Shown in pieces: positions 26,766 through 54,162 of a stretch of DNA of 64,000 nt (positions within the stretch are counted from its first letter, which is position 1; every line of letters begins with the position of its first letter). A program made the translations under genes and the position numbers. The notes under the pieces are model-generated. The model saw only the letters and a list, made by a program, of their open reading frames with translations. It was not told the origin of the DNA and did not search any database. Origin of the DNA: Salminus brasiliensis (lineage: Eukaryota; Chordata; Actinopteri; Characiformes; Bryconidae); the NCBI RefSeq assembly GCF_030463535.1, contig NC_132878.1:26174425-26238424 (forward strand), read 5' to 3'.

Positions 26766-27640
26766 CAAACCGGATTCCAAAAAAGTTGGGATACTAAACA
26801 AATTGTGAATAAAAACTGAATACAATGATGTGGAGATGGCAAATGTCAATATTATATTCGTAATAGAACATAGATGACAGATCAAAAGTTTAATCTGAGT
26901 AAATGGAACATTTTAAAGGAGAAATATGTTGATTCAAAATTTCATGGCGTCAACAAATCCCAAAAAAGTTTGGACAAGTAGCAATAAGTGGCTGGAAAAA
27001 GGAAATTGAGCATATAACGAACAGCTGGAAGACCAATTAACACTAATTAGGTCAATTGACAACATGATTGGGTATAAAAAGAGCTTCTCAGAGTGTCAGT
27101 GTCTCTCTGAAGCCGCGATGGTAAGAGGATCACCAATTCCACCATTGTTGCGCAGAAAGATAGTGCAGCAATACCAGAATGGTGTTACCCAGCGTAAAAT
27201 AGCAAAGACTTTTAAGTTATCATCATCAACCGTGCTTAACATCATCAAAAGATTCAGAGAATCTGGAACAATCGCTGTGTATAAGGGTCAAGGCCGTAAA
27301 ACTCTACTGGATGCTCATGATCTCCGGGCCCTTAAACGTCACTGCACCTCAAACAGGAATGCCACTGTCAAGGAAATAACAGAATGGGCTCAGGAATACT
27401 TCCAGAAATCATTGTCAGTGAACACAATCCACCGTGCCATCCGCCGTTGCCAGCTGAAACTCTACAGTGCAAAGAGGAAGCCATTTCTAAGCAAGCTCCA
27501 CAAGCTCAGACGTTTGCACTGGTCCAGGGGTCTTTTAAAATGGAGTGTGGCAAAATGGAAGACTGTTCTGTGGTCAGATGAGGCACGATTTGAAGTTCTT
27601 TATGGAACACTGGGACGCCATGTCATCCAGGCCAGAGAGA
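26766..27640 (+). mobile_element. Tc1-like transposon, 3' half deleted, unit 3
   Basis: The 5' inverted repeat and the transposase N-terminal half are present. The element stops at a junction near 27635-27641, where Tc1 sequence runs straight into LINE 3'-UTR sequence through a short AGAGA-type overlap. The right inverted repeat is lost, so it cannot transpose. Confidence 0.88.
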
Positions 27641-27828
27641 ATCTTCTCCGAGTAAATGGCCACCCAGCCCGACCTGCTGGAAGATTGCCCGCTGAGGTCC
27701 CCTCTACCTGCGTCAAACCAGCTGCCACCTACTGGTCCAACCAGCAGGCCCCCCACCCACCACCACCCATAACTGCTACCTGTTTAATGACCATGTTAAA
27801 ACCTAAAAAAAACCAAATGGACTCGTAA
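27064..27828 (+). pseudogene. Chimeric ORF: Tc1 transposase N-part fused to LINE 3'-UTR, unit 3
   Basis: A 254-codon open frame. Residues 1 to about 190 are Tc1 transposase: both helix-turn-helix subdomains and WSDEARF with the first catalytic Asp, ending in LGRHVIQARE. From about residue 193 the deletion junction switches to sequence from the LINE 3' UTR (LLRVNGHPARPAGRLPAEVP and onward), which was never coding. Unlike unit 1, this copy has CAG rather than TAG at EYFQ, so the DNA-binding part is uninterrupted. I infer a fortuitous ORF; expression is unknown. Confidence 0.7.
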
Positions 27829-28161
27829 CTGTCTGCCACTATTAATATCACCATTATGAACTATCTGTTGTATCTGGTTTGGTCATTTTTATCATTAATG
27901 TTTAAATAGTTCTGACCAGAGGAGGCTGGGTCCCCCTTGTGAGACTTGGTTCCTCCCAAGGTTTCTTCCTCCAGCTCTGAGGGAGTTTTTCCTTGCCACT
28001 GTCGCCATTGGCTTACTCACGGGGGTCTTTGATCCGTCATATCTTACGTTATTTTCTTCTTTCTTCTTTGTCTCTGTCTTTTATTAATCACTATTTATGT
28101 AAAGCTGCTTTGTGACGACAACAGTTGTAAAAAGCGCTTTACAAATAAATCTGACTTGACT

Positions 28162-30030
28162 ATATCACAGTGTGCTGGGGCAGAGGTTCTAGTGCAGGGC
28201 ATTTTCTACACACTGCTTTTCTCTTAGAGGAACTGGGAAGCTGTGTGTAACCTGTAATGGTAGAAACTGGTTCCTTCTAATGAACTTTATTCCAAATCCT
28301 CATGGATTTGTACTTTCCTGAGAGTTGAACGAGTTTAATACTATATAATCTAGTACTATCTAGTACATGTCACAGAGGGAGAAAACATGCCCTCGTTTTG
28401 GGGGGATTTCATGGAGTTGAGCGCTTTCACACGGTGTAATGGAGTTTGGGCGACCCCTAGTGGCAAGTGGTGAACTGCAGCTAGACTTAGCTTTGGTGCT
28501 TCTGAGCTGCGGTCCTTCAGCAGCAGACTGTGCTTCTAACGCTGGGGGCAGGAGCACAGCTCCGTGTTTTGTTGCTAAATTCAGATTAAAAACGTGTTTC
28601 AGTTAAAAATCCTCTACTCACTTAAACTATCATACAGATGAGCAAGTGTTGAGATGAAGACTGCACTGTTTTAGCTCGTAGTTCAGCTTTTATCAGCTTC
28701 GTCTTCGTTTCTCTGTCGTGAGTTTGGGTGAGGAGAACATGAGGCTCCATTTTCCTCTGTTTTCTCCAGTCCTGCTAGCGGTGGATGAACTAAGCCATGT
28801 TTTACTTTCATTAGAGATAATTGTATTTCTTTACCCAGCTTAAACCTGATCTGCAGTCATCACACCACCTAGAAGACTTTGAACCTCTCCAGCCCTTTTT
28901 TCCATTTCCAGTCTGAAATTACACTCCCACATCTTGAGGCTTTCTGCTCCAGCCTTATATAAACTAGAGGCAATTTCACCAGTTACTGAAAAGCCTTCAC
29001 TTTTGGAGTAGAAAACATGTAGAAATATTGAAATTGATCTGCAGTGGTCAAAATATGATAAAAACCACAAAAAGAATTTTCCTGAATTTCATTTTAAAAT
29101 CTAGATTTTAGAGACTATAAACTGAAGCCTTCATGTCCCCCAAAACTTTCTGCTTTGGACTCTCGTGTCACCATGGGTCTACTTTCACCAGGCAACATTT
29201 GGAGCTGATCCCTCCTCCTGATTTGAAGTTCTTCTAGCTGGAGCTGACAGTGAACAGGCTGCTTCTCCAAGTGTCCTTTTAGAGTCTCTAAAGTCTCCAA
29301 CCTCTCCATCATAAGAACAGCTCATTTTACTGCAGGAAAGGGATCGTGTATTATCTGCACTTGATGGCAACATGTTATCCTGTATTTCTTCACCTTCTTT
29401 GACAAACTTACGTCATCCACCAGTTCTGATTGAATATTTTATTCTAGTGCCAAACCAAGAGCAATCACTAGTAGATAAGAGCAAAGAGGCAGGAGGGTCT
29501 AGTTTCACCTTTGCTTGTTTTATTTAGTCAGGTTTTCTTATTCTAGCTTTCACAGCTCTCACTGCTGTCCAACTCCAGCAAAGCCTCGGCTTCACTTTCC
29601 CGTTCCAACTCTGTCAAAATTTCTCCAACAGCATAAAATACTTTCTTCTATGATTTCTGAGTTTGTTTTGAAGCAATTTTTATTGATTATTGCTGCCAAT
29701 AATTTCTTCCTTCCTGAGAAGCTGCTTCAGGAAACAATCCTTCAGAAGTAAAAAGGTTCTGGAGCTCAGATTTGAGAAGCTTCAGAGCTGCATGAATGAA
29801 ATGCTGGATTTCTGATGGAAATCCATGATGTGAGCTGACAGACTGTAGATGAGCTGGTGTGAAAGGACTCCTTCACATCCTCACCTAATGCTTCCTTTTC
29901 CATCAGCTGTGTTACTGACAACCCTCTGAACTCTTCATCTGCGGCTGTTTAAACACTCAAGCAGCAGAGAGGCTGAGAGAATGTGGGTTCAGCTCTGTGG
30001 AGAAGACGTGAAGAAGAGTCTTCATGTGAA
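28162..30030 (-). other. Unidentified segment with exon-like minus-strand pieces, unit 3
   Basis: Counterpart of 17313-19180, with identical translations of the two open blocks (28840-29070 and 29115-29312). A minus-strand AATAAA is at 29679-29684. Confidence 0.33.
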
Positions 30031-30113
30031 GAGCTTCATCTTTTTCTCTCAGTTAATGAATGAAAGAGAATCGTAGGAGATTCTTTTCAGATCTACAAGA
30101 TTTAACACACACA

Positions 30114-31247
30114 TCACTTCTTATCACATAACCTCACAGTGGATCCACCACAAACCCAGAACCCAGCGTAGAGCGGCTGAGTGAATGTGGTGTGGAGTGT
30201 GTGTAGGAGGGTCATTGTGTCAGAGACGCTGTAGAAGGACAGAGTTCCTGCACTGTGATCCACATACACTCCTATTCTGGAGGATGGTGGAGCTGAGACC
30301 TTAGTCCGAATGCTGTTGTGGAGAAAAGAGAGAGAGGAGGAACACACCAGACTCCAGGACTGACTGTTGCATCCAAACACACACTCATTACCCCCTCCTT
30401 TCCTGCTGATCCCTTTATATGAGACTGATATGTACACACACCCCCCTCCGCTCCACTCAACCTCCCAGTAACAACGTCCACACACACTCTCCTTACACAA
30501 CACCTGAGGCCAGCTGTTAAACCTCTCTGGATGATCAGAGTATGACTGGACTTTACTCCACATCACCACTCTGTTCTTCTCAGACAGTCTGAGGTGATTA
30601 TTTACTGTGTTGGGATCCAGAGTCAGTCGACAGTGATCTACAGAAAAGTAAAGAAAAGAAAAGTTAAATTATTTAAAGTAAAACACTGTTGCTGAGTGTG
30701 TGTGTGTGCTTGTGTGTGTGTGTTTAATTCAGTACATGTCTGTGTGTGTGTTTGTCTTTTAATGTGTGTGAATTTGTTTCATTTAGTGTCGTGTTTGTGT
30801 GTGGGTATGTATGTGTGTTACACATACACTGCAGAAAGTCTTCTCTGGTTTTTGGCTCTGAGGATAAAATCTGAACTGCTGCAGCTGTGGAGACACACAA
30901 ACACAACAGTCCAACAGCATAAATAGAATAGAATAGAATAGAGTAGAGTAGAGTAGAATAGAATTAAAATGTTTCTGAAGATTAAAGATAAAGTTTAAAA
31001 CGTAAAAACAATCTTTATTTCTAAGAAACTTAGAAGATCAGTCATTTCAGTCTTTCTCTCTCTCTCTAAAACCGGATTTATCTGTTGATAAATATAACAG
31101 TTTTGTAGAAATATGAGAGAAGTAATAACAGTAATAATAGAAGAACAGCAATAATACAATAATTCATGTAAAGCAAATAAATGATATTTTTAAGGAGTGC
31201 TCTTTTAAATGTATGTGAATTACACTGATCAGTTACCAGCATCTTTC

Positions 31248-31293
<46 letters not shown>

Positions 31294-32781
31294 GGTCTGA
31301 TGAAATATGACACTCTGTTACAGTGTGAATCTGTAAGGGTGGACCAATTCCAGCCACCAGAGGGCAGCGGTAGTCCGATAATCAGTCCTAACTCCCAGCA
31401 CCTGGTGAGCTGAGTATATATACTCCTCAAGGAACAACCAGAGTGGCTGGTTCTTTGTGGAGCACATAGTGTTTACAACATACAGGCGGTTATTTGGTGT
31501 CGTTTCATACACTGTGTTCCTTCTGTCTTGTTTCTTTTGGAAAGTTAGGTCTCACCCTTTCCTACTTTCCAATTTCTGTTCAAAAGAAGGCAGTGAGGTT
31601 TCTCCATCCCCTTCTCCTAGTTTACTCATTTATCTTTAGGAAGAACTGGAGGTTCAAGGAACCTTCCTCCTTTCCCTCCTTATTTTTCTGCCATAGCTTT
31701 GTTTGGGAGTCCAAGCTATTTAGTTCGCCTCAGTTCAAAGAAGGCAGCCAGCCTCCCCTGGCATCGTTGTCTGGTTTTCCTGCTCAAACCCTCCCTTGTG
31801 CAGTGGTAAAGTAGTGGTAAAGTACCTGGTTTCTGATCCCGTGGACCTGGGTTCAATTCCCACTGAAAGTTGGGATATCATTAAGTTCTGATACCCATGC
31901 CTTTCTGTTCCACATCTTGACAGCTAAGTGTTTAGGTCATATTCTAACTACCACTGGTAGCTCTATCGGTAGGGCCCTGGACTAGTCCCGCTAGTGCTAC
32001 CATTACAGAATCAGCTGCTGGACACAGGTGGTGGCTGCAGTGCGTGGTCAGTGTGTAGAGGAACAGTAAGAGGAACAGAGTTCAATTAGATAATTTCTAT
32101 GGAGCTCAGAGGAAACTTGTCTCACTTGTCCTCTTTCTGTCCAAGTAAAGATTCCCATCCTTATGTCTGACAGCAGGACAGCTGCTCTTACCATGTGGAG
32201 GGATCTTCCTGAACTCCTCTCTGCAGAATTCCTGTAGTCGCTCTTTCAGCTCAGAGACAGATTTCCTCACTCCATCAAATGAGGGATGTTGATGGACAGT
32301 GATGCTGGCTGAGTCCTCAGATCCAGAAGAGACACAGAGAGACTGGAAACTCTACAGAGAGAAGAAACACAATGGAGGAAGATGAAGGTGGAGAAGAGAG
32401 ATGAAGGAGATCAGAGCAAATGAGACTAAAGAGAAAGTTGGGATTACAGACAGCTTTATTTAGTGGAGCTTAATGAACTTCTGCTGAGAGGAGCTTTACA
32501 AGCTTGATGAGGAGCAGCTTCCTCTGTAGATCAGTGAGTGTTACCTGGAGGAAATGGAGGTGATCCTCTGTGTGTGAAAGCTGCTCCAGCTCAGTGTGTC
32601 TCCTCTTTAGATCAGCCATCTCCTGCTGCAGTTTCTCCAGGAGTTCTTCAGCTCCACTCAGTTCAGCCTTCTCCTGAGCTCTGATCAGCTCTGTTAGCTC
32701 AGAGCGCTTTTTCTCAATTGAGCGGATCAGCTCAGTAAAGATCCTCTCACTGTCCTCCACTGCTGATTGTGCAGAGCGCTG

Positions 32782-32824
<43 letters not shown>

Positions 32825-34519
32825 GAATATTCTCTAGAAGGCTAATGTAGCAGTGGTGTAAAAGTACTCTGATTCTGATGAGATCTGAGTAACAGTAAGA
32901 GTGAAGGAAAGGAGCTGGAGGAAGAATCAATCAGAGTAAAGAGGAAATATTTGCTAAAGGGAAGAAAGGAAAAGTGAAAGCTGCAATGAATCAAATCACT
33001 TCTAATGAATGTGATCTTTAGCAGAGCTGTTTCAGTACTGTGACCTGATCTGGATCCTATTTTCATTTATTTGTGTAAAGATTCAATTTTCTAGTATTTT
33101 ACTGAACCACAGTAGGTTGGACTCATGTTTGAGGTAAACACTAAAACACAGAACAGTACTGAAGATCCTCACATTCTGATTATTAGATCTTTGTGTTGAT
33201 TAAAAAATGTTGTAAATGATGTTGTAAAAAAGCATAGCAGGTAAATATTTCTGCTTTTTTACTTTAAAGCCGTTCTAACAACAACTGGAAGCTCCTATTC
33301 GATCAGTAACAGATCATTTGTTCAGGAAATGTAGTAAAAATAAGGTAACCTTGTTTATGTGGAGTCTGACACTGTATTACACACTGTTATCTATAAACAT
33401 GGAAAAGAAATGATCTGTGCGTTTGTCAGGTTTTATAGATTAGAAATAGCTACATTAGCCTCAGTCCTTCACTGCAGAACTGAAAAGCAAACTTCAGACC
33501 CCGAACAGCTTTTGACTCTGTTTGGGAAAAGGAGAAAAACTGTGTCTTTCTGTTCTCACCTTAAGAGTGTTCACTGTCTGTTCCAGCTCCTGCAGCTTCT
33601 TCTGCTTCTCCTGGATCCTCTGCTGGAGTTTCTCCTGCATCTCTTTTAGCTGAGTCTATGAACAAACACATTTGATGATGTTTATGAATTTGTGTGAATT
33701 ATGATCTAGATGGGTAGATGGCTGTTGGCTGGTTACACATTCACTAACTGCTCTGATCAGTTTATTGAACTCTTCCGTACAAACAGCATTTGAACTCATT
33801 CCTTCAAAATCTATGTACTAAAATCAAGAACCAACTTTCTTTAACTCGATCAACTGATTAATGAAACTCCTTCTGGATGAGGAATCTAATTAGTCTGAGC
33901 TGATTCTGAATGATCTAACAGTTCTCACCTGTTTCCTGCTTCTTTCTGTTGTAGCTGAGACTGTATCGTGTCCCCTGTGATCCTCCATTGTGCATAAATA
34001 GCAGATAGAGCTCTGATCAGTACGACAGTAGATCTCGATCAGTCTGTCATGCTGAGAGCAGATCTTCTCTTGTAGCTGGGTGGACGCTTTGACCAGCTTG
34101 TGCTTCTTCCAAGTAGGAACTTCAGAGTGAGGTTTAAGATGAGTTTCACAAAAGGAGGCCAGACACGTCAGACAGGACTTGATGGCTTTGAGTTTTCTCC
34201 CGGTGCAGAAATCACACTCCACATCTCCAGGTCCAGCGTAACGGGGAGCAGGAGAAGCAGCTTGGAGTTGTGTCTTCTTCAGTTTCTCCACCACTTCAGC
34301 CAGCATGTTGTTCCTGCGTAGAACAGGCCTTGGAGTGAACGTCTCTCTGCACTGGGGGCAGCTGTAGACCCCCTTCTGTTCATCCTGATCCCAGCAGCCA
34401 TTAATACACACCATACAGAAACTGTGTCCACAGTGGATGGTCACTGGATCCTTCAGCAGATCCAGACAGACTGGACAGCTGAACTGCTCGTGATCTACTG
34501 AAATACTGGCCTCTGCCAT
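30114..34519 (-). CDS. TRIM E3 ubiquitin ligase, copy C
   Basis: Exons on minus: 33929-34519, 33560-33655, 32545-32778, 32192-32351, 30828-30878, 30114-30637; 1656 nt, 551 aa, intact. Exon 1 translation is identical to B and D. In the SPRY, the loop of A and B is replaced by EWSGGGCVYIS, the C-terminus is GFWVCGGSTVRLC, and the PRY-to-SPRY link reads WSKVQSYSDH with NSWPQVL. The substitution at NSW-x-QVL (Lys in A and B, Pro here, Tyr in D and E) and a 3-nt length difference are almost the only coding changes from copy D. Confidence 0.88.
31316..31795 (+). repeat. LTR-like interspersed repeat in TRIM intron 4, unit 3
   Basis: Counterpart of 8586-9060. Confidence 0.35.
31801..31985 (+). repeat. 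tRNA-like / SINE-like sequence in TRIM intron 4, unit 3
   Basis: Counterpart of 9071-9260, B box kept. Confidence 0.42.
32784..32820. repeat. (AC)n microsatellite at the exon 3 acceptor, TRIM C
   Basis: 37-nt run at the exon 3 acceptor. Confidence 0.9.
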
Positions 34520-34560
34520 TTTCCTGCACTTCTAGACTGAGAGAGAGCAGCACTCTGAGA

Positions 34561-34574
34561 TCACTTTCGTTTTC
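34561..34574 (-). promoter_or_regulatory. ISRE/IRF-like element, TRIM C promoter
   Basis: Same motif, 42 bp upstream of the ATG of copy C. Confidence 0.7.
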
Positions 34575-34626
34575 TCTGAACTGAGCAGGAGGGACTTCCT
34601 GCTTTCCTGCTGCTCAGAGTGTCACA

Positions 34627-34642
34627 GAGAGGGGAGGAGAGA

Positions 34643-34680
<38 letters not shown>
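34627..34680. repeat. (AG)n microsatellite upstream of TRIM C
   Basis: Imperfect AG run; it differs from the copy B counterpart by a few AG units. Confidence 0.88.
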
Positions 34681-34683
<3 letters not shown>

Positions 34684-35136
34684 AGAGGACAGAACTGATT
34701 GGTGGACGGGGAACTAAATATCTTGCACTTTTGCAGAACACATGACCGTTTAACTATTAGCTAAATTCATCAGCAAGAAATACAGCATTAAGTGGCTTTT
34801 ACACACAGTGCTCCTCATGATCCAGGAGGGAGAGGAGCACACTTGGCTAAATCCCTCATGGTGGGACATATTATTAGGTACTTCTTATTTGACATTATTT
34901 TACGGACTGTTAAAGATTGATGGAAAATAACAGCCATTTTCAACAGTATTATTCTGTTATTTTAATGAAAGATGCATTTCTGTTGTAAATGGTCTGAATG
35001 TGAAAAGCATTATGGGACATTTTTTAGACAAGTCCTAATAAAGCCACTCTGCACAAGCAGCCTGCTTTAACCTCTTCATTACAGTTTGTACTTTAGACAC
35101 ATTTTACTGTGTTTTTATGAATTATTTAGCGTTGTA

Positions 35137-35682
35137 TTAACAGTGATATCATGTGTTTATAAAAGCAGCATTTTACTGTACATTTCTACAACAGTGTAAC
35201 AGGCAGGACTTGTTCATTTATTATGTATCAGTCAGGATCTGTGAAGGACCTGTTAGCATGTATTATGCATCAGCTAGGACCTGGGGAGAGTTCTCCTCCC
35301 GCGAGCTGTATTGGGCAGCGCCCACAGGTGTAGTCTGCGTCTATTGGGCATGACGTCAACACAGCATGGCGCCTATATCTATCCGGACTTGCGCAACAGC
35401 GTTTGTTTGGCGTGGTGAACGCAGGTAGTATGAGTTATTGCTCTACAGACGGTGGGTGGATCATGTTTTATAGGAAGTGTTCTGTCTGTTTGTTCAGTTG
35501 AGGTACTTAATAAATCTGAGTTCAGGTAACTGTGGTGCCGCATTAGTTAAAGTGGACTGGGTTCTATTGGTGGACCCATTTGGTATTAAGGTTACATTTA
35601 CAGTAACTTATTGGAAACCCTGCTACTTTTTTTTTTGTTGCTACAAATCACTGCCATGTTTAAACAGTGTAACAAGCAGTGC
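35137..35682 (+). promoter_or_regulatory. CpG-rich promoter-like / LTR-like block, unit 4
   Basis: Same block, with the CRE at 35351-35358. It is divergent to TRIM C (ATG at 34519) and shows no visible difference from unit 3. Confidence 0.5.
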
Positions 35683-35774
35683 AGTGATGCTGAGACTAAT
35701 GCTGTGTATGAACCATAACACACTCTGCTCTGACAAATCTAATTTGTGTATATATTTATTTATTTTAATTAGTT

Positions 35775-36481
35775 TAGTGGACAGTCACATGAGCACAGCT
35801 AGTCAAGTCTCCCTGTTCCATCTCCAGCACCATCACACTGAATGTGGGGGTGACCCAACACAGTGCCCCAGGGGGTTCTGAGTTCTCTGCTGAAAAACTC
35901 AAATCACTTCATGAAGTTCACCAATGATAAACCAGTGCTGGGTCTGATCAGCATACAGAGAGGAGGTGCAGAGACTGACAGACTAGTGTAAAGTCAGCAG
36001 CCCTTACCTGAAGGTAGACAAGACTAAAGAAATGGTTGTTGACTTTAGGAGAACGCTACACAACCACTCTCCGCTCAACATCGACAGTCCAACAAGACTG
36101 CAACAGCACTTTCCCCACAAGCAATCTGACTCCAGTGAAAGCATTGCACTACATACTACCTCACTACATCCCTGGACTCTGCACATTTATTGACCTATTT
36201 AAAAAAAAAATGGCTGCTCTAACCTGTGCTGCACTCTACTGGTTTGAACATGATATGCACATTTTATTGCACAACCCTACTCCCCACTACTCTCAGACTC
36301 TTATTTATTTGCACTCTCTAGTCTGCACTGTATGCCTTGTGTTGTGCTGTCTGTATTCGCTTGTTCTGTGTTGGACTTTTGTTTCTGTCTGCACTGTGTT
36401 GCGTTGCACCATGGTCCTGGAGGATTGTTTTGTTTCACTGTGTACTGTGAGTTAAAATGACCAAGCCTCTTGACTTGGTCA
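35775..36481 (+). mobile_element. Rex1-like non-LTR retrotransposon fragment, unit 4
   Basis: Duplicate of the unit 3 fragment (25118-25824), with the same RT motif and 3' hairpin. It was carried along by the segmental duplication rather than by independent insertion. Confidence 0.55.
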
Positions 36482-37422
36482 GTCATAGCTGATTAAAATT
36501 TGTATAAATATCTATGCTGACATCAGACACCTTAAACTGATAACTGACCTTTTTGTTTGACTTTATAATCTGATTGAAGCTACAAACACTGCAGGAATCT
36601 ACAGAACAGTCATCATGGTCTTGTTAGCACAACATGCCTTTAAAACTCCAACCAGAAGACCTCATAAAGAACTGAGGAGTGGATGTAGCTCTTTGGGAGG
36701 AGTCACATTATCTGCTGCTCCCAGAAAAAATCTCCCTCATGCTGGTTAAGGGTCAGCAGATGAGGATTGCACCTCCAGAAGCAAAAAGACCATAAAGCTA
36801 ATCCGTAATGAGATTAGTCTGACTTGTGTTTCCAGGTATAGCAGGATTGTGTGAACTGATTCAGATAGACAATATGGTCAGTGTGAACTTGCTGCTGGTC
36901 ATATCTCATATGGATTAGTAACCACTGAAAGAAGCACATCAGCATTATACAGAGATATGAAGTTTATAGTGGACAGTCACATGATCACAGCTAGTCCAGT
37001 CTCCCTGTTTCATCCTGTTTATCTCTCATACGTTTGTTACAATGTCCAGTCTTACATTTCTCTGGTGTTTAGATCAGCTCTTACATTTACATCACTACAC
37101 TTCTCAAGTGGGTGGGTGTGAGACTCCCTCATTGTTCTCGAATCTCACAACAAACCTCTGAAATCTCCAACTTTACTAAATATCTGAGACTTCAAACTTA
37201 TGCTGAAAGCATATTACTCAGCATGTTTGGATTCAGGGCCTTTATTCTGTCTTGATGTCCACTGTCTGCTGTGCAGCAAGAGGGACATCTTGTGCTGGTA
37301 TGATGGTGCTATATGCCAAAGGCTAGATTACTGTAATGCACTTTTGTCAGGTTGTTCCAGCAGGAACCTCAATAAACTTCAGCTGGTTCAAAATGCTGCA
37401 GCCAGGGTCCTTACTAAAACTA

Positions 37423-38297
37423 CAAACCGGATTCCAAAAAAGTTGGGATACTAAACAAATTGTGAATAAAAACTGAATACAATGATGTGGAGATGGCAAA
37501 TGTCAATATTATATTCGTAATAGAACATAGATGACAGATCAAAAGTTTAATCTGAGTAAATGGAACATTTTAAAGGAGAAATATGTTGATTCAAAATTTC
37601 ATGGCGTCAACAAATCCCAAAAAAGTTTGGACAAGTAGCAATAAGTGGCTGGAAAAAGGAAATTGAGCATATAACGAACAGCTGGAAGACCAATTAACAC
37701 TAATTAGGTCAATTGACAACATGATTGGGTATAAAAAGAGCTTCTCAGAGTGTCAGTGTCTCTCTGAAGCCGCGATGGTAAGAGGATCACCAATTCCACC
37801 ATTGTTGCGCAGAAAGATAGTGCAGCAATACCAGAATGGTGTTACCCAGCGTAAAATAGCAAAGACTTTTAAGTTATCATCATCAACCGTGCTTAACATC
37901 ATCAAAAGATTCAGAGAATCTGGAACAATCGCTGTGTATAAGGGTCAAGGCCGTAAAACTCTACTGGATGCTCATGATCTCCGGGCCCTTAAACGTCACT
38001 GCACCTCAAACAGGAATGCCACTGTCAAGGAAATAACAGAATGGGCTCAGGAATACTTCCAGAAATCATTGTCAGTGAACACAATCCACCGTGCCATCCG
38101 CCGTTGCCAGCTGAAACTCTACAGTGCAAAGAGGAAGCCATTTCTAAGCAAGCTCCACAAGCTCAGACGTTTGCACTGGTCCAGGGGTCTTTTAAAATGG
38201 AGTGTGGCAAAATGGAAGACTGTTCTGTGGTCAGATGAGGCACGATTTGAAGTTCTTTATGGAACACTGGGACGCCATGTCATCCAGGCCAGAGAGA
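37423..38297 (+). mobile_element. Tc1-like transposon, 3' half deleted, unit 4
   Basis: Same truncated element and same junction as at 26766-27640, so the deletion predates duplication of units 3-5. Confidence 0.88.
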
Positions 38298-38485
38298 ATC
38301 TTCTCCGAGTAAATGGCCACCCAGCCCGACCTGCTGGAAGATTGCCCGCTGAGGTCCCCTCTACCTGCGTCAAACCAGCTGCCACCTACTGGTCCAACCA
38401 GCAGGCCCCCCACCCACCACCACCCATAACTGCTACCTGTTTAATGACCATGTTAAAACCTAAAAAAAACCAAATGGACTCGTAA
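37721..38485 (+). pseudogene. Chimeric ORF: Tc1 transposase N-part fused to LINE 3'-UTR, unit 4
   Basis: Identical in translation to the 254-codon chimera of unit 3 (27064-27828), duplicated with the unit. Confidence 0.7.
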
Positions 38486-38818
38486 CTGTCTGCCACTATT
38501 AATATCACCATTATGAACTATCTGTTGTATCTGGTTTGGTCATTTTTATCATTAATGTTTAAATAGTTCTGACCAGAGGAGGCTGGGTCCCCCTTGTGAG
38601 ACTTGGTTCCTCCCAAGGTTTCTTCCTCCAGCTCTGAGGGAGTTTTTCCTTGCCACTGTCGCCATTGGCTTACTCACGGGGGTCTTTGATCCGTCATATC
38701 TTACGTTATTTTCTTCTTTCTTCTTTGTCTCTGTCTTTTATTAATCACTATTTATGTAAAGCTGCTTTGTGACGACAACAGTTGTAAAAAGCGCTTTACA
38801 AATAAATCTGACTTGACT

Positions 38819-40690
38819 ATATCACAGTGTGCTGGGGCAGAGGTTCTAGTGCAGGGCATTTTCTACACACTGCTTTTCTCTTAGAGGAACTGGGAAGCTG
38901 TGTGTAACCTGTAATGGTAGAAACTGGTTCCTTCTAATGAACTTTATTCCAAATCCTCATGGATTTGTACTTTCCTGAGAGTTGAACGAGTTTAATACTA
39001 TATAATCTAGTACTATCTAGTACATGTCACAGAGGGAGAAAACATGCCCTCGTTTTGGGGGGATTTCATGGAGTTGAGCGCTTTCACACGGTGTAATGGA
39101 GTTTGGGCGACCCCTAGTGGCAAGTGGTGAACTGCAGCTAGACTTAGCTTTGGTGCTTCTGAGCTGCGGTCCTTCAGCAGCAGACTGTGCTTCTAACGCT
39201 GGGGGCAGGAGCACAGCTCCGTGTTTTGTTGCTAAATTCAGATTAAAAACGTGTTTCAGTTAAAAATCCTCTACTCACTTAAACTATCATACAGATGAGC
39301 AAGTGTTGAGATGAAGACTGCACTGTTTTAGCTCGTAGTTCAGCTTTTATCAGCTTCGTCTTCGTTTCTCTGTCGTGAGTTTGGGTGAGGAGAACATGAG
39401 GCTCCATTTTCCTCTGTTTTCTCCAGTCCTGCTAGCGGTGGATGAACTAAGCCATGTTTTACTTTCATTAGAGATAATTGTATTTCTTTACCCAGCTTAA
39501 ACCTGATCTGCAGTCATCACACCACCTAGAAGACTTTGAACCTCTCCAGCCCTTTTTTCCATTTCCAGTCTGAAATTACACTCCCACATCTTGAGGCTTT
39601 CTGCTCCAGCCTTATATAAACTAGAGGCAATTTCACCAGTTACTGAAAAGCCTTCACTTTTGGAGTAGAAAACATGTAGAAATATTGAAATTGATCTGCA
39701 GTGGTCAAAATATGATAAAAACCACAAAAAGAATTTTCCTGAATTTCATTTTAAAATCTAGATTTTAGAGACTATAAACTGAAGCCTTCATGTCCCCCAA
39801 AACTTTCTGCTTTGGACTCTCGTGTCACCATGGGTCTACTTTCACCAGGCAACATTTGGAGCTGATCCCTCCTCCTGATTTGAAGTTCTTCTAGCTGGAG
39901 CTGACAGTGAACAGGCTGCTTCTCCAAGTGTCCTTTTAGAGTCTCTAAAGTCTCCAACCTCTCCATCATAAGAACAGCTCATTTTACTGCAGGAAAGGGA
40001 TCGTGTATTATCTGCACTTGATGGCAACATGTTATCCTGTATTTCTTCACCTTCTTTGACAAACTTACGTCATCCACCAGTTCTGATTGAATATTTTATT
40101 CTAGTGCCAAACCAAGAGCAATCACTAGTAGATAAGAGCAAAGAGGCAGGAGGGTCTAGTTTCACCTTTGCTTGTTTTATTTAGTCAGGTTTTCTTATTC
40201 TAGCTTTCACAGCTCTCACTGCTGTCCAACTCCAGCAAAGCCTCGGCTTCACTTTCCCGTTCCAACTCTGTCAAAATTTCTCCAACAGCATAAAATACTT
40301 TCTTCTATGATTTCTGAGTTTGTTTTGAAGCAATTTTTATTGATTATTGCTGCCAATAATTTCTTCCTTCCTGAGAAGCTGCTTCAGGAAACAATCCTTC
40401 AGAAGTAAAAAGGTTCTGGAGCTCAGATTTGAGAAGCTTCAGAGCTGCATGAATGAAATGCTGGATTTCTGATGGAAATCCATGATGTGAGCTGACAGAC
40501 TGTAGATGAGCTGGTGTGAAAGGACTCCTTCACATCCTCACCTAATGCTTCCTTTTCCATCAGCTGTGTTACTGACAACCCTCTGAACTCTTCATCTGCG
40601 GCTGTTTAAACACTCAAGCAGCAGAGAGGCTGAGAGAATGTGGGTTCAGCTCTGTGGAGAAGACGTGAAGAAGAGTCTTCATGTGAAGAG
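38819..40690 (-). other. Unidentified segment with exon-like minus-strand pieces, unit 4
   Basis: Duplicate of the unit 3 segment; open blocks at 39497-39727 and 39772-39969. Confidence 0.33.
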
Positions 40691-40770
40691 CTTCATCTTT
40701 TTCTCTCAGTTAATGAATGAAAGAGAATCGTAGGAGATTCTTTTCAGATCTACAAGATTTAACACACACA

Positions 40771-41907
40771 TCACTTCTTATCACATAACCTCACAGTGGA
40801 TCCACCACAAACCCAGAACCCAGCGTAGAGCGGCTGAGTGAATGTGGTGTGGAGTGTGTGTAGGAGGGTCATTGTGTCAGAGACGCTGTAGAAGGACAGA
40901 GTTCCTGCACTGTGATCCACATACACTCCTATTCTGGAGGATGGTGGAGCTGAGACCTTAGTCCGAATGCTGTTGTGGAGAAAAGAGAGAGAGGAGGAAC
41001 ACACCAGACTCCAGGACTGACTGTTGCATCCAAACACACACTCATTACCCCCTCCTTTCCTGCTGATCCCTTTATATGAGACTGATATGTACACACACCC
41101 CCCTCCGCTCCACTCAACCTCCCAGTAACAACGTCCACACACACTCTCCTTACACAACACCTGATACCAGCTGTTAAACCTCTCTGGATGATCAGAGTAT
41201 GGCTGGTCTTCTTCACTCCACATCACCACTCTGTTCTTCTCAGACAGTCTGAGGTGATTATTTACTGTGTTGGGATCCAGAGTCAGTCGACAGTGATCTA
41301 CAGAAAAGTAAAGAAAAGAAAAGTTAAATTATTTAAAGTAAAACACTGTTGCTGAGTGTGTGTGTGTGCTTGTGTGTGTGTGTTTAATTCAGTACATGTC
41401 TGTGTGTGTGTTTGTCTTTTAATGTGTGTGAATTTGTTTCATTTAGTGTCGTGTTTGTGTGTGGGTATGTATGTGTGTTACACATACACTGCAGAAAGTC
41501 TTCTCTGGTTTTTGGCTCTGAGGATAAAATCTGAACTGCTGCAGCTGTGGAGACACACAAACACAACAGTCCAACAGCATAAATAGAATAGAATAGAATA
41601 GAGTAGAGTAGAGTAGAATAGAATTAAAATGTTTCTGAAGATTAAAGATAAAGTTTAAAACGTAAAAACAATCTTTATTTCTAAGAAACTTAGAAGATCA
41701 GTCATTTCAGTCTTTCTCTCTCTCTCTAAAACCGGATTTATCTGTTGATAAATATAACAGTTTTGTAGAAATATGAGAGAAGTAATAACAGTAATAATAG
41801 AAGAACAGCAATAATACAATAATTCATGTAAAGCAAATAAATGATATTTTTAAGGAGTGCTCTTTTAAATGTATGTGAATTACACTGATCAGTTACCAGC
41901 ATCTTTC

Positions 41908-41953
<46 letters not shown>

Positions 41954-43441
41954 GGTCTGATGAAATATGACACTCTGTTACAGTGTGAATCTGTAAGGGT
42001 GGACCAATTCCAGCCACCAGAGGGCAGCGGTAGTCCGATAATCAGTCCTAACTCCCAGCACCTGGTGAGCTGAGTATATATACTCCTCAAGGAACAACCA
42101 GAGTGGCTGGTTCTTTGTGGAGCACATAGTGTTTACAACATACAGGCGGTTATTTGGTGTCGTTTCATACACTGTGTTCCTTCTGTCTTGTTTCTTTTGG
42201 AAAGTTAGGTCTCACCCTTTCCTACTTTCCAATTTCTGTTCAAAAGAAGGCAGTGAGGTTTCTCCATCCCCTTCTCCTAGTTTACTCATTTATCTTTAGG
42301 AAGAACTGGAGGTTCAAGGAACCTTCCTCCTTTCCCTCCTTATTTTTCTGCCATAGCTTTGTTTGGGAGTCCAAGCTATTTAGTTCGCCTCAGTTCAAAG
42401 AAGGCAGCCAGCCTCCCCTGGCATCGTTGTCTGGTTTTCCTGCTCAAACCCTCCCTTGTGCAGTGGTAAAGTAGTGGTAAAGTACCTGGTTTCTGATCCC
42501 GTGGACCTGGGTTCAATTCCCACTGAAAGTTGGGATATCATTAAGTTCTGATACCCATGCCTTTCTGTTCCACATCTTGACAGCTAAGTGTTTAGGTCAT
42601 ATTCTAACTACCACTGGTAGCTCTATCGGTAGGGCCCTGGACTAGTCCCGCTAGTGCTACCATTACAGAATCAGCTGCTGGACACAGGTGGTGGCTGCAG
42701 TGCGTGGTCAGTGTGTAGAGGAACAGTAAGAGGAACAGAGTTCAATTAGATAATTTCTATGGAGCTCAGAGGAAACTTGTCTCACTTGTCCTCTTTCTGT
42801 CCAAGTAAAGATTCCCATCCTTATGTCTGACAGCAGGACAGCTGCTCTTACCATGTGGAGGGATCTTCCTGAACTCCTCTCTGCAGAATTCCTGTAGTCG
42901 CTCTTTCAGCTCAGAGACAGATTTCCTCACTCCATCAAATGAGGGATGTTGATGGACAGTGATGCTGGCTGAGTCCTCAGATCCAGAAGAGACACAGAGA
43001 GACTGGAAACTCTACAGAGAGAAGAAACACAATGGAGGAAGATGAAGGTGGAGAAGAGAGATGAAGGAGATCAGAGCAAATGAGACTAAAGAGAAAGTTG
43101 GGATTACAGACAGCTTTATTTAGTGGAGCTTAATGAACTTCTGCTGAGAGGAGCTTTACAAGCTTGATGAGGAGCAGCTTCCTCTGTAGATCAGTGAGTG
43201 TTACCTGGAGGAAATGGAGGTGATCCTCTGTGTGTGAAAGCTGCTCCAGCTCAGTGTGTCTCCTCTTTAGATCAGCCATCTCCTGCTGCAGTTTCTCCAG
43301 GAGTTCTTCAGCTCCACTCAGTTCAGCCTTCTCCTGAGCTCTGATCAGCTCTGTTAGCTCAGAGCGCTTTTTCTCAATTGAGCGGATCAGCTCAGTAAAG
43401 ATCCTCTCACTGTCCTCCACTGCTGATTGTGCAGAGCGCTG

Positions 43442-43484
<43 letters not shown>

Positions 43485-45179
43485 GAATATTCTCTAGAAG
43501 GCTAATGTAGCAGTGGTGTAAAAGTACTCTGATTCTGATGAGATCTGAGTAACAGTAAGAGTGAAGGAAAGGAGCTGGAGGAAGAATCAATCAGAGTAAA
43601 GAGGAAATATTTGCTAAAGGGAAGAAAGGAAAAGTGAAAGCTGCAATGAATCAAATCACTTCTAATGAATGTGATCTTTAGCAGAGCTGTTTCAGTACTG
43701 TGACCTGATCTGGATCCTATTTTCATTTATTTGTGTAAAGATTCAATTTTCTAGTATTTTACTGAACCACAGTAGGTTGGACTCATGTTTGAGGTAAACA
43801 CTAAAACACAGAACAGTACTGAAGATCCTCACATTCTGATTATTAGATCTTTGTGTTGATTAAAAAATGTTGTAAATGATGTTGTAAAAAAGCATAGCAG
43901 GTAAATATTTCTGCTTTTTTACTTTAAAGCCGTTCTAACAACAACTGGAAGCTCCTATTCGATCAGTAACAGATCATTTGTTCAGGAAATGTAGTAAAAA
44001 TAAGGTAACCTTGTTTATGTGGAGTCTGACACTGTATTACACACTGTTATCTATAAACATGGAAAAGAAATGATCTGTGCGTTTGTCAGGTTTTATAGAT
44101 TAGAAATAGCTACATTAGCCTCAGTCCTTCACTGCAGAACTGAAAAGCAAACTTCAGACCCCGAACAGCTTTTGACTCTGTTTGGGAAAAGGAGAAAAAC
44201 TGTGTCTTTCTGTTCTCACCTTAAGAGTGTTCACTGTCTGTTCCAGCTCCTGCAGCTTCTTCTGCTTCTCCTGGATCCTCTGCTGGAGTTTCTCCTGCAT
44301 CTCTTTTAGCTGAGTCTATGAACAAACACATTTGATGATGTTTATGAATTTGTGTGAATTATGATCTAGATGGGTAGATGGCTGTTGGCTGGTTACACAT
44401 TCACTAACTGCTCTGATCAGTTTATTGAACTCTTCCGTACAAACAGCATTTGAACTCATTCCTTCAAAATCTATGTACTAAAATCAAGAACCAACTTTCT
44501 TTAACTCGATCAACTGATTAATGAAACTCCTTCTGGATGAGGAATCTAATTAGTCTGAGCTGATTCTGAATGATCTAACAGTTCTCACCTGTTTCCTGCT
44601 TCTTTCTGTTGTAGCTGAGACTGTATCGTGTCCCCTGTGATCCTCCATTGTGCATAAATAGCAGATAGAGCTCTGATCAGTACGACAGTAGATCTCGATC
44701 AGTCTGTCATGCTGAGAGCAGATCTTCTCTTGTAGCTGGGTGGACGCTTTGACCAGCTTGTGCTTCTTCCAAGTAGGAACTTCAGAGTGAGGTTTAAGAT
44801 GAGTTTCACAAAAGGAGGCCAGACACGTCAGACAGGACTTGATGGCTTTGAGTTTTCTCCCGGTGCAGAAATCACACTCCACATCTCCAGGTCCAGCGTA
44901 ACGGGGAGCAGGAGAAGCAGCTTGGAGTTGTGTCTTCTTCAGTTTCTCCACCACTTCAGCCAGCATGTTGTTCCTGCGTAGAACAGGCCTTGGAGTGAAC
45001 GTCTCTCTGCACTGGGGGCAGCTGTAGACCCCCTTCTGTTCATCCTGATCCCAGCAGCCATTAATACACACCATACAGAAACTGTGTCCACAGTGGATGG
45101 TCACTGGATCCTTCAGCAGATCCAGACAGACTGGACAGCTGAACTGCTCGTGATCTACTGAAATACTGGCCTCTGCCAT
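40771..45179 (-). CDS. TRIM E3 ubiquitin ligase, copy D
   Basis: Exons on minus: 44589-45179, 44220-44315, 43205-43438, 42852-43011, 41488-41538, 40771-41297; 1659 nt, 552 aa, intact. Exons 1-5 match copy C. The SPRY has WSEEDQPYSDH and NSWYQVL in place of copy C's WSKVQSYSDH and NSWPQVL; the EED part resembles copy A. The remaining SPRY loops (SGGGCVYIS, GFWVCGGSTV) match C and E. The RING and both B-boxes are complete, so ligase activity is predicted to be kept while target recognition may differ. Confidence 0.88.
41976..42455 (+). repeat. LTR-like interspersed repeat in TRIM intron 4, unit 4
   Basis: Counterpart of 8586-9060, matching unit 3. Confidence 0.35.
42461..42645 (+). repeat. tRNA-like / SINE-like sequence in TRIM intron 4, unit 4
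   Basis: Counterpart of 9071-9260, B box kept. Confidence 0.42.
43444..43480. repeat. (AC)n microsatellite at the exon 3 acceptor, TRIM D
   Basis: 37-nt run at the exon 3 acceptor. Confidence 0.9.
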
Positions 45180-45220
45180 TTTCCTGCACTTCTAGACTGA
45201 GAGAGAGCAGCACTCTGAGA

Positions 45221-45234
45221 TCACTTTCGTTTTC
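45221..45234 (-). promoter_or_regulatory. ISRE/IRF-like element, TRIM D promoter
   Basis: Same motif, 42 bp upstream of the ATG of copy D. Confidence 0.7.
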
Positions 45235-45286
45235 TCTGAACTGAGCAGGAGGGACTTCCTGCTTTCCTGCTGCTCAGAGTGTCACA

Positions 45287-45302
45287 GAGAGGGGAGGAGA
45301 GA

Positions 45303-45340
<38 letters not shown>
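45287..45340. repeat. (AG)n microsatellite upstream of TRIM D
   Basis: Same as in copy C. Confidence 0.88.
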
Positions 45341-45343
<3 letters not shown>

Positions 45344-45796
45344 AGAGGACAGAACTGATTGGTGGACGGGGAACTAAATATCTTGCACTTTTGCAGAACA
45401 CATGACCGTTTAACTATTAGCTAAATTCATCAGCAAGAAATACAGCATTAAGTGGCTTTTACACACAGTGCTCCTCATGATCCAGGAGGGAGAGGAGCAC
45501 ACTTGGCTAAATCCCTCATGGTGGGACATATTATTAGGTACTTCTTATTTGACATTATTTTACGGACTGTTAAAGATTGATGGAAAATAACAGCCATTTT
45601 CAACAGTATTATTCTGTTATTTTAATGAAAGATGCATTTCTGTTGTAAATGGTCTGAATGTGAAAAGCATTATGGGACATTTTTTAGACAAGTCCTAATA
45701 AAGCCACTCTGCACAAGCAGCCTGCTTTAACCTCTTCATTACAGTTTGTACTTTAGACACATTTTACTGTGTTTTTATGAATTATTTAGCGTTGTA

Positions 45797-46342
45797 TTAA
45801 CAGTGATATCATGTGTTTATAAAAGCAGCATTTTACTGTACATTTCTACAACAGTGTAACAGGCAGGACTTGTTCATTTATTATGTATCAGTCAGGATCT
45901 GTGAAGGACCTGTTAGCATGTATTATGCATCAGCTAGGACCTGGGGAGAGTTCTCCTCCCGCGAGCTGTATTGGGCAGCGCCCACAGGTGTAGTCTGCGT
46001 CTATTGGGCATGACGTCAACACAGCATGGCGCCTATATCTATCCGGACTTGCGCAACAGCGTTTGTTTGGCGTGGTGAACGCAGGTAGTATGAGTTATTG
46101 CTCTACAGACGGTGGGTGGATCATGTTTTATAGGAAGTGTTCTGTCTGTTTGTTCAGTTGAGGTACTTAATAAATCTGAGTTCAGGTAACTGTGGTGCCG
46201 CATTAGTTAAAGTGGACTGGGTTCTATTGGTGGACCCATTTGGTATTAAGGTTACATTTACAGTAACTTATTGGAAACCCTGCTACTTTTTTTTTTGTTG
46301 CTACAAATCACTGCCATGTTTAAACAGTGTAACAAGCAGTGC
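45797..46342 (+). promoter_or_regulatory. CpG-rich promoter-like / LTR-like block, unit 5
   Basis: Same block, with the CRE at 46011-46018, divergent to TRIM D (ATG at 45179). TRIM E has no such block upstream: the single-copy rpl36a region begins instead. Confidence 0.5.
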
Positions 46343-46434
46343 AGTGATGCTGAGACTAATGCTGTGTATGAACCATAACACACTCTGCTCTGACAAATCT
46401 AATTTGTGTATATATTTATTTATTTTAATTAGTT

Positions 46435-47141
46435 TAGTGGACAGTCACATGAGCACAGCTAGTCAAGTCTCCCTGTTCCATCTCCAGCACCATCACACTG
46501 AATGTGGGGGTGACCCAACACAGTGCCCCAGGGGGTTCTGAGTTCTCTGCTGAAAAACTCAAATCACTTCATGAAGTTCACCAATGATAAACCAGTGCTG
46601 GGTCTGATCAGCATACAGAGAGGAGGTGCAGAGACTGACAGACTAGTGTAAAGTCAGCAGCCCTTACCTGAAGGTAGACAAGACTAAAGAAATGGTTGTT
46701 GACTTTAGGAGAACGCTACACAACCACTCTCCGCTCAACATCGACAGTCCAACAAGACTGCAACAGCACTTTCCCCACAAGCAATCTGACTCCAGTGAAA
46801 GCATTGCACTACATACTACCTCACTACATCCCTGGACTCTGCACATTTATTGACCTATTTAAAAAAAAAATGGCTGCTCTAACCTGTGCTGCACTCTACT
46901 GGTTTGAACATGATATGCACATTTTATTGCACAACCCTACTCCCCACTACTCTCAGACTCTTATTTATTTGCACTCTCTAGTCTGCACTGTATGCCTTGT
47001 GTTGTGCTGTCTGTATTCGCTTGTTCTGTGTTGGACTTTTGTTTCTGTCTGCACTGTGTTGCGTTGCACCATGGTCCTGGAGGATTGTTTTGTTTCACTG
47101 TGTACTGTGAGTTAAAATGACCAAGCCTCTTGACTTGGTCA
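46435..47141 (+). mobile_element. Rex1-like non-LTR retrotransposon fragment, unit 5
   Basis: Duplicate of the unit 3 and 4 fragments, with the same RT motif and 3' hairpin. Confidence 0.55.
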
Positions 47142-48082
47142 GTCATAGCTGATTAAAATTTGTATAAATATCTATGCTGACATCAGACACCTTAAACTGA
47201 TAACTGACCTTTTTGTTTGACTTTATAATCTGATTGAAGCTACAAACACTGCAGGAATCTACAGAACAGTCATCATGGTCTTGTTAGCACAACATGCCTT
47301 TAAAACTCCAACCAGAAGACCTCATAAAGAACTGAGGAGTGGATGTAGCTCTTTGGGAGGAGTCACATTATCTGCTGCTCCCAGAAAAAATCTCCCTCAT
47401 GCTGGTTAAGGGTCAGCAGATGAGGATTGCACCTCCAGAAGCAAAAAGACCATAAAGCTAATCCGTAATGAGATTAGTCTGACTTGTGTTTCCAGGTATA
47501 GCAGGATTGTGTGAACTGATTCAGATAGACAATATGGTCAGTGTGAACTTGCTGCTGGTCATATCTCATATGGATTAGTAACCACTGAAAGAAGCACATC
47601 AGCATTATACAGAGATATGAAGTTTATAGTGGACAGTCACATGATCACAGCTAGTCCAGTCTCCCTGTTTCATCCTGTTTATCTCTCATACGTTTGTTAC
47701 AATGTCCAGTCTTACATTTCTCTGGTGTTTAGATCAGCTCTTACATTTACATCACTACACTTCTCAAGTGGGTGGGTGTGAGACTCCCTCATTGTTCTCG
47801 AATCTCACAACAAACCTCTGAAATCTCCAACTTTACTAAATATCTGAGACTTCAAACTTATGCTGAAAGCATATTACTCAGCATGTTTGGATTCAGGGCC
47901 TTTATTCTGTCTTGATGTCCACTGTCTGCTGTGCAGCAAGAGGGACATCTTGTGCTGGTATGATGGTGCTATATGCCAAAGGCTAGATTACTGTAATGCA
48001 CTTTTGTCAGGTTGTTCCAGCAGGAACCTCAATAAACTTCAGCTGGTTCAAAATGCTGCAGCCAGGGTCCTTACTAAAACTA

Positions 48083-48957
48083 CAAACCGGATTCCAAAAA
48101 AGTTGGGATACTAAACAAATTGTGAATAAAAACTGAATACAATGATGTGGAGATGGCAAATGTCAATATTATATTCGTAATAGAACATAGATGACAGATC
48201 AAAAGTTTAATCTGAGTAAATGGAACATTTTAAAGGAGAAATATGTTGATTCAAAATTTCATGGCGTCAACAAATCCCAAAAAAGTTTGGACAAGTAGCA
48301 ATAAGTGGCTGGAAAAAGGAAATTGAGCATATAACGAACAGCTGGAAGACCAATTAACACTAATTAGGTCAATTGACAACATGATTGGGTATAAAAAGAG
48401 CTTCTCAGAGTGTCAGTGTCTCTCTGAAGCCGCGATGGTAAGAGGATCACCAATTCCACCATTGTTGCGCAGAAAGATAGTGCAGCAATACCAGAATGGT
48501 GTTACCCAGCGTAAAATAGCAAAGACTTTTAAGTTATCATCATCAACCGTGCTTAACATCATCAAAAGATTCAGAGAATCTGGAACAATCGCTGTGTATA
48601 AGGGTCAAGGCCGTAAAACTCTACTGGATGCTCATGATCTCCGGGCCCTTAAACGTCACTGCACCTCAAACAGGAATGCCACTGTCAAGGAAATAACAGA
48701 ATGGGCTCAGGAATACTTCCAGAAATCATTGTCAGTGAACACAATCCACCGTGCCATCCGCCGTTGCCAGCTGAAACTCTACAGTGCAAAGAGGAAGCCA
48801 TTTCTAAGCAAGCTCCACAAGCTCAGACGTTTGCACTGGTCCAGGGGTCTTTTAAAATGGAGTGTGGCAAAATGGAAGACTGTTCTGTGGTCAGATGAGG
48901 CACGATTTGAAGTTCTTTATGGAACACTGGGACGCCATGTCATCCAGGCCAGAGAGA
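48083..48957 (+). mobile_element. Tc1-like transposon, 3' half deleted, unit 5
   Basis: Same truncated element and junction as in units 3 and 4. Confidence 0.88.
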
Positions 48958-49145
48958 ATCTTCTCCGAGTAAATGGCCACCCAGCCCGACCTGCTGGAAG
49001 ATTGCCCGCTGAGGTCCCCTCTACCTGCGTCAAACCAGCTGCCACCTACTGGTCCAACCAGCAGGCCCCCCACCCACCACCACCCATAACTGCTACCTGT
49101 TTAATGACCATGTTAAAACCTAAAAAAAACCAAATGGACTCGTAA
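48381..49145 (+). pseudogene. Chimeric ORF: Tc1 transposase N-part fused to LINE 3'-UTR, unit 5
   Basis: Identical in translation to the chimeras of units 3 and 4, duplicated with the unit. Confidence 0.7.
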
Positions 49146-49478
49146 CTGTCTGCCACTATTAATATCACCATTATGAACTATCTGTTGTATCTGGTTTGGT
49201 CATTTTTATCATTAATGTTTAAATAGTTCTGACCAGAGGAGGCTGGGTCCCCCTTGTGAGACTTGGTTCCTCCCAAGGTTTCTTCCTCCAGCTCTGAGGG
49301 AGTTTTTCCTTGCCACTGTCGCCATTGGCTTACTCACGGGGGTCTTTGATCCGTCATATCTTACGTTATTTTCTTCTTTCTTCTTTGTCTCTGTCTTTTA
49401 TTAATCACTATTTATGTAAAGCTGCTTTGTGACGACAACAGTTGTAAAAAGCGCTTTACAAATAAATCTGACTTGACT

Positions 49479-51350: not shown

Positions 51351-51430
51351 CTTCATCTTTTTCTCTCAGTTAATGAATGAAAGAGAATCGTAGGAGATTC
51401 TTTTCAGATCTACAAGATTTAACACACACA

Positions 51431-52567: not shown

Positions 52568-52611
<44 letters not shown>

Positions 52612-54102: not shown

Positions 54103-54162
<60 letters not shown>

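Follow-up and report, generated by a model that had tools for sequence, protein, structure and literature searches.

Probable block transfer of a short exon patch between gene copies in a finTRIM-type array of Salminus brasiliensis

The window analysed here (64,000 nucleotides of Salminus brasiliensis contig NC_132878.1, hereafter C1, positions 26,174,425 to 26,238,424) lies within an array of finTRIM-type genes, TRIM genes of a fish antiviral type. The window contains five tandem units, termed A-E, with the array genes on the minus strand; the array continues upstream of it, and 16 copies of the last exon were identified within the 223-kb stretch examined. Two neighbouring units, C and D (the third and fourth), differ only in one short patch of exon 6, which encodes the PRY-SPRY (B30.2) region. 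The question raised by this locus is therefore how the patch came to differ between two otherwise identical copies. The results described below indicate that a block transfer between gene copies is the probable cause, and this can be stated with good confidence.

Base-by-base alignment of C with D (10,660 columns; coordinates in Table 1) revealed that only 8 columns differ, all of them located at positions 30508-30554 of C and 41165-41214 of D. They comprise five substitutions, each changing an amino acid, and one in-frame 3-bp codon indel; outside the patch the two units are identical at all 10,610 bases. The initial annotation, made from the sequence without database searches, had described the units as alike over about 10.66 kb, with differences and a 3-bp indel clustered within about 65 bp. 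This was confirmed, with a narrower cluster (47 bp of C) and no even spread of differences along the unit. The minus-strand reading of the patch is WSK-VQSYSDHPERFNSWPQ in C and WSEEDQPYSDHPERFNSWYQ in D and E, and at the variable codon of the motif NSW-x-QVL, A and B have AAA, C has CCT, and D and E have TAT, as originally read.

Comparison of the repeat with itself one period on showed that, patch aside, 17,921 bp are identical (10,610 bp of C versus D, 3,658 bp to the left and 3,653 bp of D versus E to the right), and that this identity is bounded by AG and TG microsatellites. Units C, D and E represent tandem duplicates of a single finTRIM-type gene, and of very recent origin. Zero substitutions outside the patch correspond to a C/D divergence below 2.8e-4 and, at mutation rates of 1e-8 to 2e-9 per site, to a split at most about 14,000 to 71,000 generations ago. 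No other pair among the 14 closest of 91 is as clean: for the next one, u02/u10, one block differs and the 4,583 columns beyond the exon contain 23 differences.

The patch corresponds to residues 39-55 of the D translation. It had been assigned to the "SPRY variable region", which holds insofar as it is located within the PRY-SPRY exon; however, it falls inside the Pfam PRY match (residues 15-62) and outside the SPRY match. Because the structure predicted for exon 6 (five window copies; mean predicted local distance difference test score, pLDDT, 44.7) was too poor to be used, it can only be inferred that the patch represents loop 1 of B30.2, a putative target-binding loop according to PMC2657112.

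The 1.07-Gb genome was searched for the patches of both units. A 76-mer containing the D/E patch was found, exactly, at D, at E and, outside these, only in array unit u01, about 143 kb away, these counts of exact copies being lower bounds. The initial annotation had proposed to look elsewhere in the genome for a donor sequence, and u01 carries the exact D patch: it agrees with D at all 8 columns that distinguish C from D, the 3-bp indel included, within an exactly matching block of 124 bp on both sides of which D and u01 differ. At column 94, the state of D is shared by u01 alone among 17 other copies. No second exact copy of the C patch (73-mer) was found in the genome search; its closest relatives are a paralogue 0.69 Mb away, p25511 (1 mismatch), and then u06 (3 mismatches). 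C is identical to p25511 at 7 of the 8 columns. Further TRIM-like matches, on contigs other than C1 and at 31-34 Mb of C1 itself, were covered, as possible donors, by the 76-mer and 73-mer searches alone. Two hallmarks of ectopic gene conversion were found, namely a sharply bordered cluster of differences between two copies that are otherwise identical, and a donor (u01) identical over the block and not over its flanks. The D patch probably arrived in one piece rather than through single mutations, in agreement with the short conversion tract that was one of the two causes initially suggested.

The other suggested cause was strong diversifying selection, under which D or C would have acquired the patch by separate point mutations. 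Each of the five substitutions alters an amino acid, and the nonsynonymous diversity (pN) of SPRY exceeds the noncoding nucleotide diversity (pi), both of which are consistent with this explanation. However, uniformly distributed events would have a chance of about 1.4e-11 of all six lying within 50 bp of 10,660, and the chance that all six hit the patch is 8e-9, 4e-7 and 5e-5 if the rate there is increased 10-, 20- and 50-fold, respectively; furthermore, point mutation would have to reproduce the state of u01 at 8 of 8 columns, including the indel. Since the 10,610 flanking bases stayed identical, point mutation is a poor account of the patch. It is considered extremely improbable, and, as the sole origin of the patch under selection, it was set aside on the event counts.

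The most likely direction of the block transfer, given with less certainty than the transfer itself, is from u01 into D before the duplication of D into E, because this explains the observed sequence matches with the fewest steps. C and D would have arisen through duplication, after which a tract of 50-124 bp over the PRY loop of D would have been overwritten by ectopic gene conversion from u01. Subsequent duplication of D would have generated E, which carries the converted patch, and C would have kept an older patch, similar to that of the paralogue 0.69 Mb away. This is the presumed time order of duplication and conversion.

A block transfer in which C was the recipient was also considered: C, D and E would have shared the D patch, and C would later have been converted by a donor missing from the assembly. 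The failure to find a second exact copy of the C 73-mer is expected if this donor was an unsampled allele, and the CCT codon is also present in one paralogue at 25.6 Mb. However, such a scenario requires two transfers, one being already implied by the 124-bp match between D and u01, and the near-agreement of C with p25511 fits an older state of the patch; it is therefore regarded as an unlikely variant of the block transfer. Allelic conversion, or a double crossover between alleles of D, one of which had earlier received the u01 patch, would look the same in a single haplotype. It adds a step and still calls for transfer from a u01-like copy at some time, and its probability seems low.

An assembly artefact, caused by false duplication from two haplotypes or by polishing with u01 reads, appears similarly improbable. 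Near-identical tandem units are difficult to assemble, and a run of 2,500 Ns is present elsewhere in the array. However, the differences between C and D are coherent, frame-keeping codons rather than homopolymer errors; it would be unusual for two haplotypes to differ in a single patch of a 10.66-kb unit and nowhere else in it, and reads from u01 would disagree with D to either side of the 124-bp block.

The proposed conversion of D by u01 would be one case of a broader pattern in the array: the conserved framework of exon 6 is interrupted by short blocks of hypervariable codons, and different copies carry these blocks in many combinations. Among the 16 units, 53 codons of exon 6 vary (47 with amino acid or codon-indel changes, 6 silent). 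This variation is arranged in blocks separated by invariant runs of up to 23 codons (15 units), and the eight blocks form 15 distinct combinations in 16 units, with D and E alike. Pairs of units (14 units; fixed denominators used for the exon parts) differed on average by 13.9% within the blocks and by 0.8% within the exon framework, against 1.93% for the sequence outside the exon. Unit u00, a partial match at the array edge, was retained in the exon 6 codon list, where codon 177 varies only due to its cut-short match, and in the 16-unit combination count; it was omitted from the gene alignment, the ratio of nonsynonymous to synonymous rates (dN/dS), cross-validation and pair counts. Unit u15 (E), whose intron part seems to be misaligned, was excluded from the recombination tests and pair means, and included in dN/dS and in the four-paralogue codon test described below.

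Site incompatibility was found to increase with distance, both in the whole gene (P 0.001) and in exon 6 (P 0.003 at 50 bp), and the squared correlation between exon 6 sites (r2) was 0.29 for sites less than 10 bp apart, decreasing to 0.15 for those separated by 30-60 bp. The pN of SPRY was 0.045, compared with a noncoding pi of 0.0205 (2.2-fold; P 0.005; interval of the ratio 1.25-3.49), and dN/dS was 2.09 for the blocks, as against 0.42 for the framework. The ratios of pN to synonymous diversity (pS) in exons 1 and 3 were 0.77 and 0.85, respectively. Diversifying selection, discarded above as the origin of the patch, is moderately supported, by the excess of pN over noncoding pi, as a force maintaining loop diversity; such diversity may be kept since it alters what the protein binds. 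Selection is likely, although the array by itself does not prove it.

Several observations weigh against the proposed block transfer and the broader pattern. The evidence comes from one assembly, and the direction of transfer was deduced by parsimony. The test of exon 6 resembling the pairwise homoplasy index (PHI) weakens with distance, P being 0.042 for 100 bp and 0.127 for 300 bp, and the same incompatibility signal is obtained from the gene portion upstream of exon 6 (P 0.001). Because of this upstream signal, exchange is not special to exon 6: it is gene-wide, and a special exon 6 hotspot is without support. A GENECONV-like run test of D and u01, from which u13 was left out as a near-copy of u14, gave P 0.12 gene-wide and P 0.004 within the exon, the latter uncorrected for 12 comparisons; the longest exon run of D with u01 is 14, but it is 15 with u12 and 13 with u06. 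As regards selection, the exon 6 dN/dS of 1.52 is accompanied by a pN/pS bootstrap interval (0.89-2.91) that spans 1, polymorphic exon 6 columns are not depleted at codon position 3 (26, 21 and 19 columns; P 0.26), and exon 1 is clumped like exon 6 (variance/mean 0.068 and 0.064). Of 28 block pairs, 11 displayed all four combinations of two alleles at two blocks; the pair that makes up the patch was not among them. Finally, the blocks were picked after viewing the data, and they were therefore checked on four paralogues at 25.5-25.65 Mb, which is the sole guard in this respect: of the codons variable among the paralogues, 22 of 35 are also variable in the array, compared with 16 of 141 others (odds ratio 13, P 1.4e-9).

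Some loop states of these paralogues are also present in the array. An extended model, in which exon 6 is a germline cassette system, can be envisaged: the invariant framework runs would provide homology arms, transfer of loop blocks would be favoured, and loop alleles from a reservoir shared between clusters 0.4-0.7 Mb apart would continually be recombined to yield new receptors, at a rate perhaps sufficient for variation among individuals or tissues. This model is judged quite unlikely. The window region 32158-32820 (exons 3 to 5, introns included) is about 98% identical to paralogues at 25.5-25.65 Mb (L023, L024 and L025), compared with 93-96% for exon 1 and 79-91% for exon 6, and this likeness may reflect a separate recent exchange between the clusters. 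Large parts of the unit outside the exons have no match in the paralogue loci at 25.5-25.65 Mb.

The gene resembles a finTRIM gene in its predicted domains and exon layout. The Pfam matches above the cut-off (zf-C3HC4_4, zf-B_box, TRIM_CC, PRY and SPRY) represent the domain set of finTRIM proteins, with one B-box found by Pfam where the finTRIM pattern has two, the first degenerate. The first three exons of gene C (591, 96 and 234 bp) have AG/GT borders and open frames and fit the finTRIM lengths (555-594, 96 and 234 bp); the lengths of 96 and 234 bp were preset in the exon search, so that such exons fit and others are possible. The last three (151 or 160 bp, a 60-bp candidate and about 521 coding bp) compare with 154, 60 and about 545 bp in finTRIM genes. 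In each of the 14 units examined, exons 2 and 3 have an open frame and an unchanged length, and the compared stretch of exon 6 is open in all 16 units. Exon 1 is incomplete in 7 of 14 units (4.7-kb extraction; in u04 an N run); it contains a smaller variable stretch at about 34101-34200, upstream of the Pfam-matched B-box. Of the solved relatives of the B30.2 domain, TRIM16 is the best and is followed, among TRIMs, by TRIM25, in agreement with the available text of PMC2657112.

Table 1. Positions in the window of the tandem units, patches, candidate conversion tracts and predicted exons.
Feature	Position	Strand	Basis
Tandem unit 3 (C)	27638-38294		
Tandem unit 4 (D)	38295-48954		
Tandem unit 5 (E), near-identical part	48955-53911
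Patch in C (K-VQS ... SWP), sole C/D difference	30508-30554	-
Patch in D (EEDQP ... SWY), 50 bp, putative minimal conversion tract	41165-41214	-
Patch in E, same as D	51825-51874	-
Putative maximal conversion tract in D, exact 124-bp match with u01 (C1 near 26072576)	41132-41255	-
Exon 1, gene C (RING + B-box), 591 bp, GTGAGA donor	33929-34519	-
Exon 2, gene C, 96 bp, putative coiled coil	33560-33655	-
Exon 3, gene C, 234 bp, TRIM coiled coil	32545-32778	-
Exon 4, gene C, acceptor ambiguous, 151 or 160 bp	32192-32351	-
Exon 5, gene C, 60-bp candidate among several (alternative 32065-32124)	32077-32136	-
Exon 6, gene C (PRY-SPRY / B30.2), stop included	30114-30637	-	start deduced from CTGTAG acceptor
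Exon 6, gene D	40771-41297	-
Exon 6, gene E	51431-51957	-
Exon 6, gene A (array unit u11)	7182-7705	-
Exon 6, gene B (array unit u12)	19266-19792	-

Units D and E differ by one TG length change, followed by mismatches from 53912 (= 43254 + 10658), and an unequal-crossover breakpoint is likely to be located at 53912-55823 in unit E. Units A and B are about 1.25 kb longer than C, D and E at a Tc1-like junction element; because of this extra DNA, the latter three seem to have in common a deletion cutting the element. Remnants of Tc1-like transposases were observed at unit junctions: the reading of the first (27010-27828, plus strand) matches Pfam HTH_Tnp_Tc3_2 at 27010-27825, and those at 37667-38485 and, in A, at 2855-4005 were classified as Tc1-like from sequence likeness alone. 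From about 54305 until near the RING exon at 55823, unit E does not align to the other units, except for a short weaker match. The N run of the array is located upstream of the window (C1:26109925-26112424).

A description of a bounded single transfer in a TRIM array was not found in the open literature, most subscription-journal papers and bioRxiv preprints being outside the search. One sub-exon transfer, bounded to 50-124 bp and with its donor probably known, appears to have been caught nearly clean here. If confirmed by reads, the array would be a place to measure the rate at which innate receptors change through patch transfer, and to test whether an exchanged loop alters protein binding.

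The closest known systems include the finTRIM (ftr) genes of zebrafish and trout (PMC2657112), which likewise occur as clustered copies with RING, B-box, coiled coil and B30.2 regions and six exons of similar lengths; the exon layout of gene C is close to that published for zebrafish. According to the available text, the B30.2 loops contain variable and positively selected finTRIM sites; most of the selected ones belong to loop 1, which lies between strands 2 and 3, and they were likened to the virus-recognition region of TRIM5alpha. Selected sites were also reported in the RING and B-box region. One breakpoint was placed in B30.2 by the genetic algorithm for recombination detection (GARD), and the main text does not use the word "conversion", in contrast to the single short transfer with a candidate donor described here. 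The zebrafish btr and trim35 genes (PMC3137616) are likewise fish TRIM multigene sets with selected B30.2 loops; seven GARD breakpoints were reported in the btr B30.2, and the available text mentions gene conversion just once, as a reference title. Recent TRIM duplicates of primates were also tested for conversion (PMC3228819); in the text available, one breakpoint was placed in the first coding exon and conversion was judged not extensive. For zebrafish NLR-B30.2 genes, gene conversion and positive selection were described, and it was suggested that sub-exon tracts could bring substitutions together (PMC4852459). These genes encode NACHT proteins, not TRIMs, and the accessible parts of that paper do not bound a single tract. 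Finally, the diversity of the Arabidopsis RPP8 recognition genes is fed by exchange among paralogues, including one at a distance of 2 Mb (PMC6771003, as far as its available text goes); that case concerns plant NLR genes and population data, whereas the transfer proposed here was deduced from one near-identical pair.

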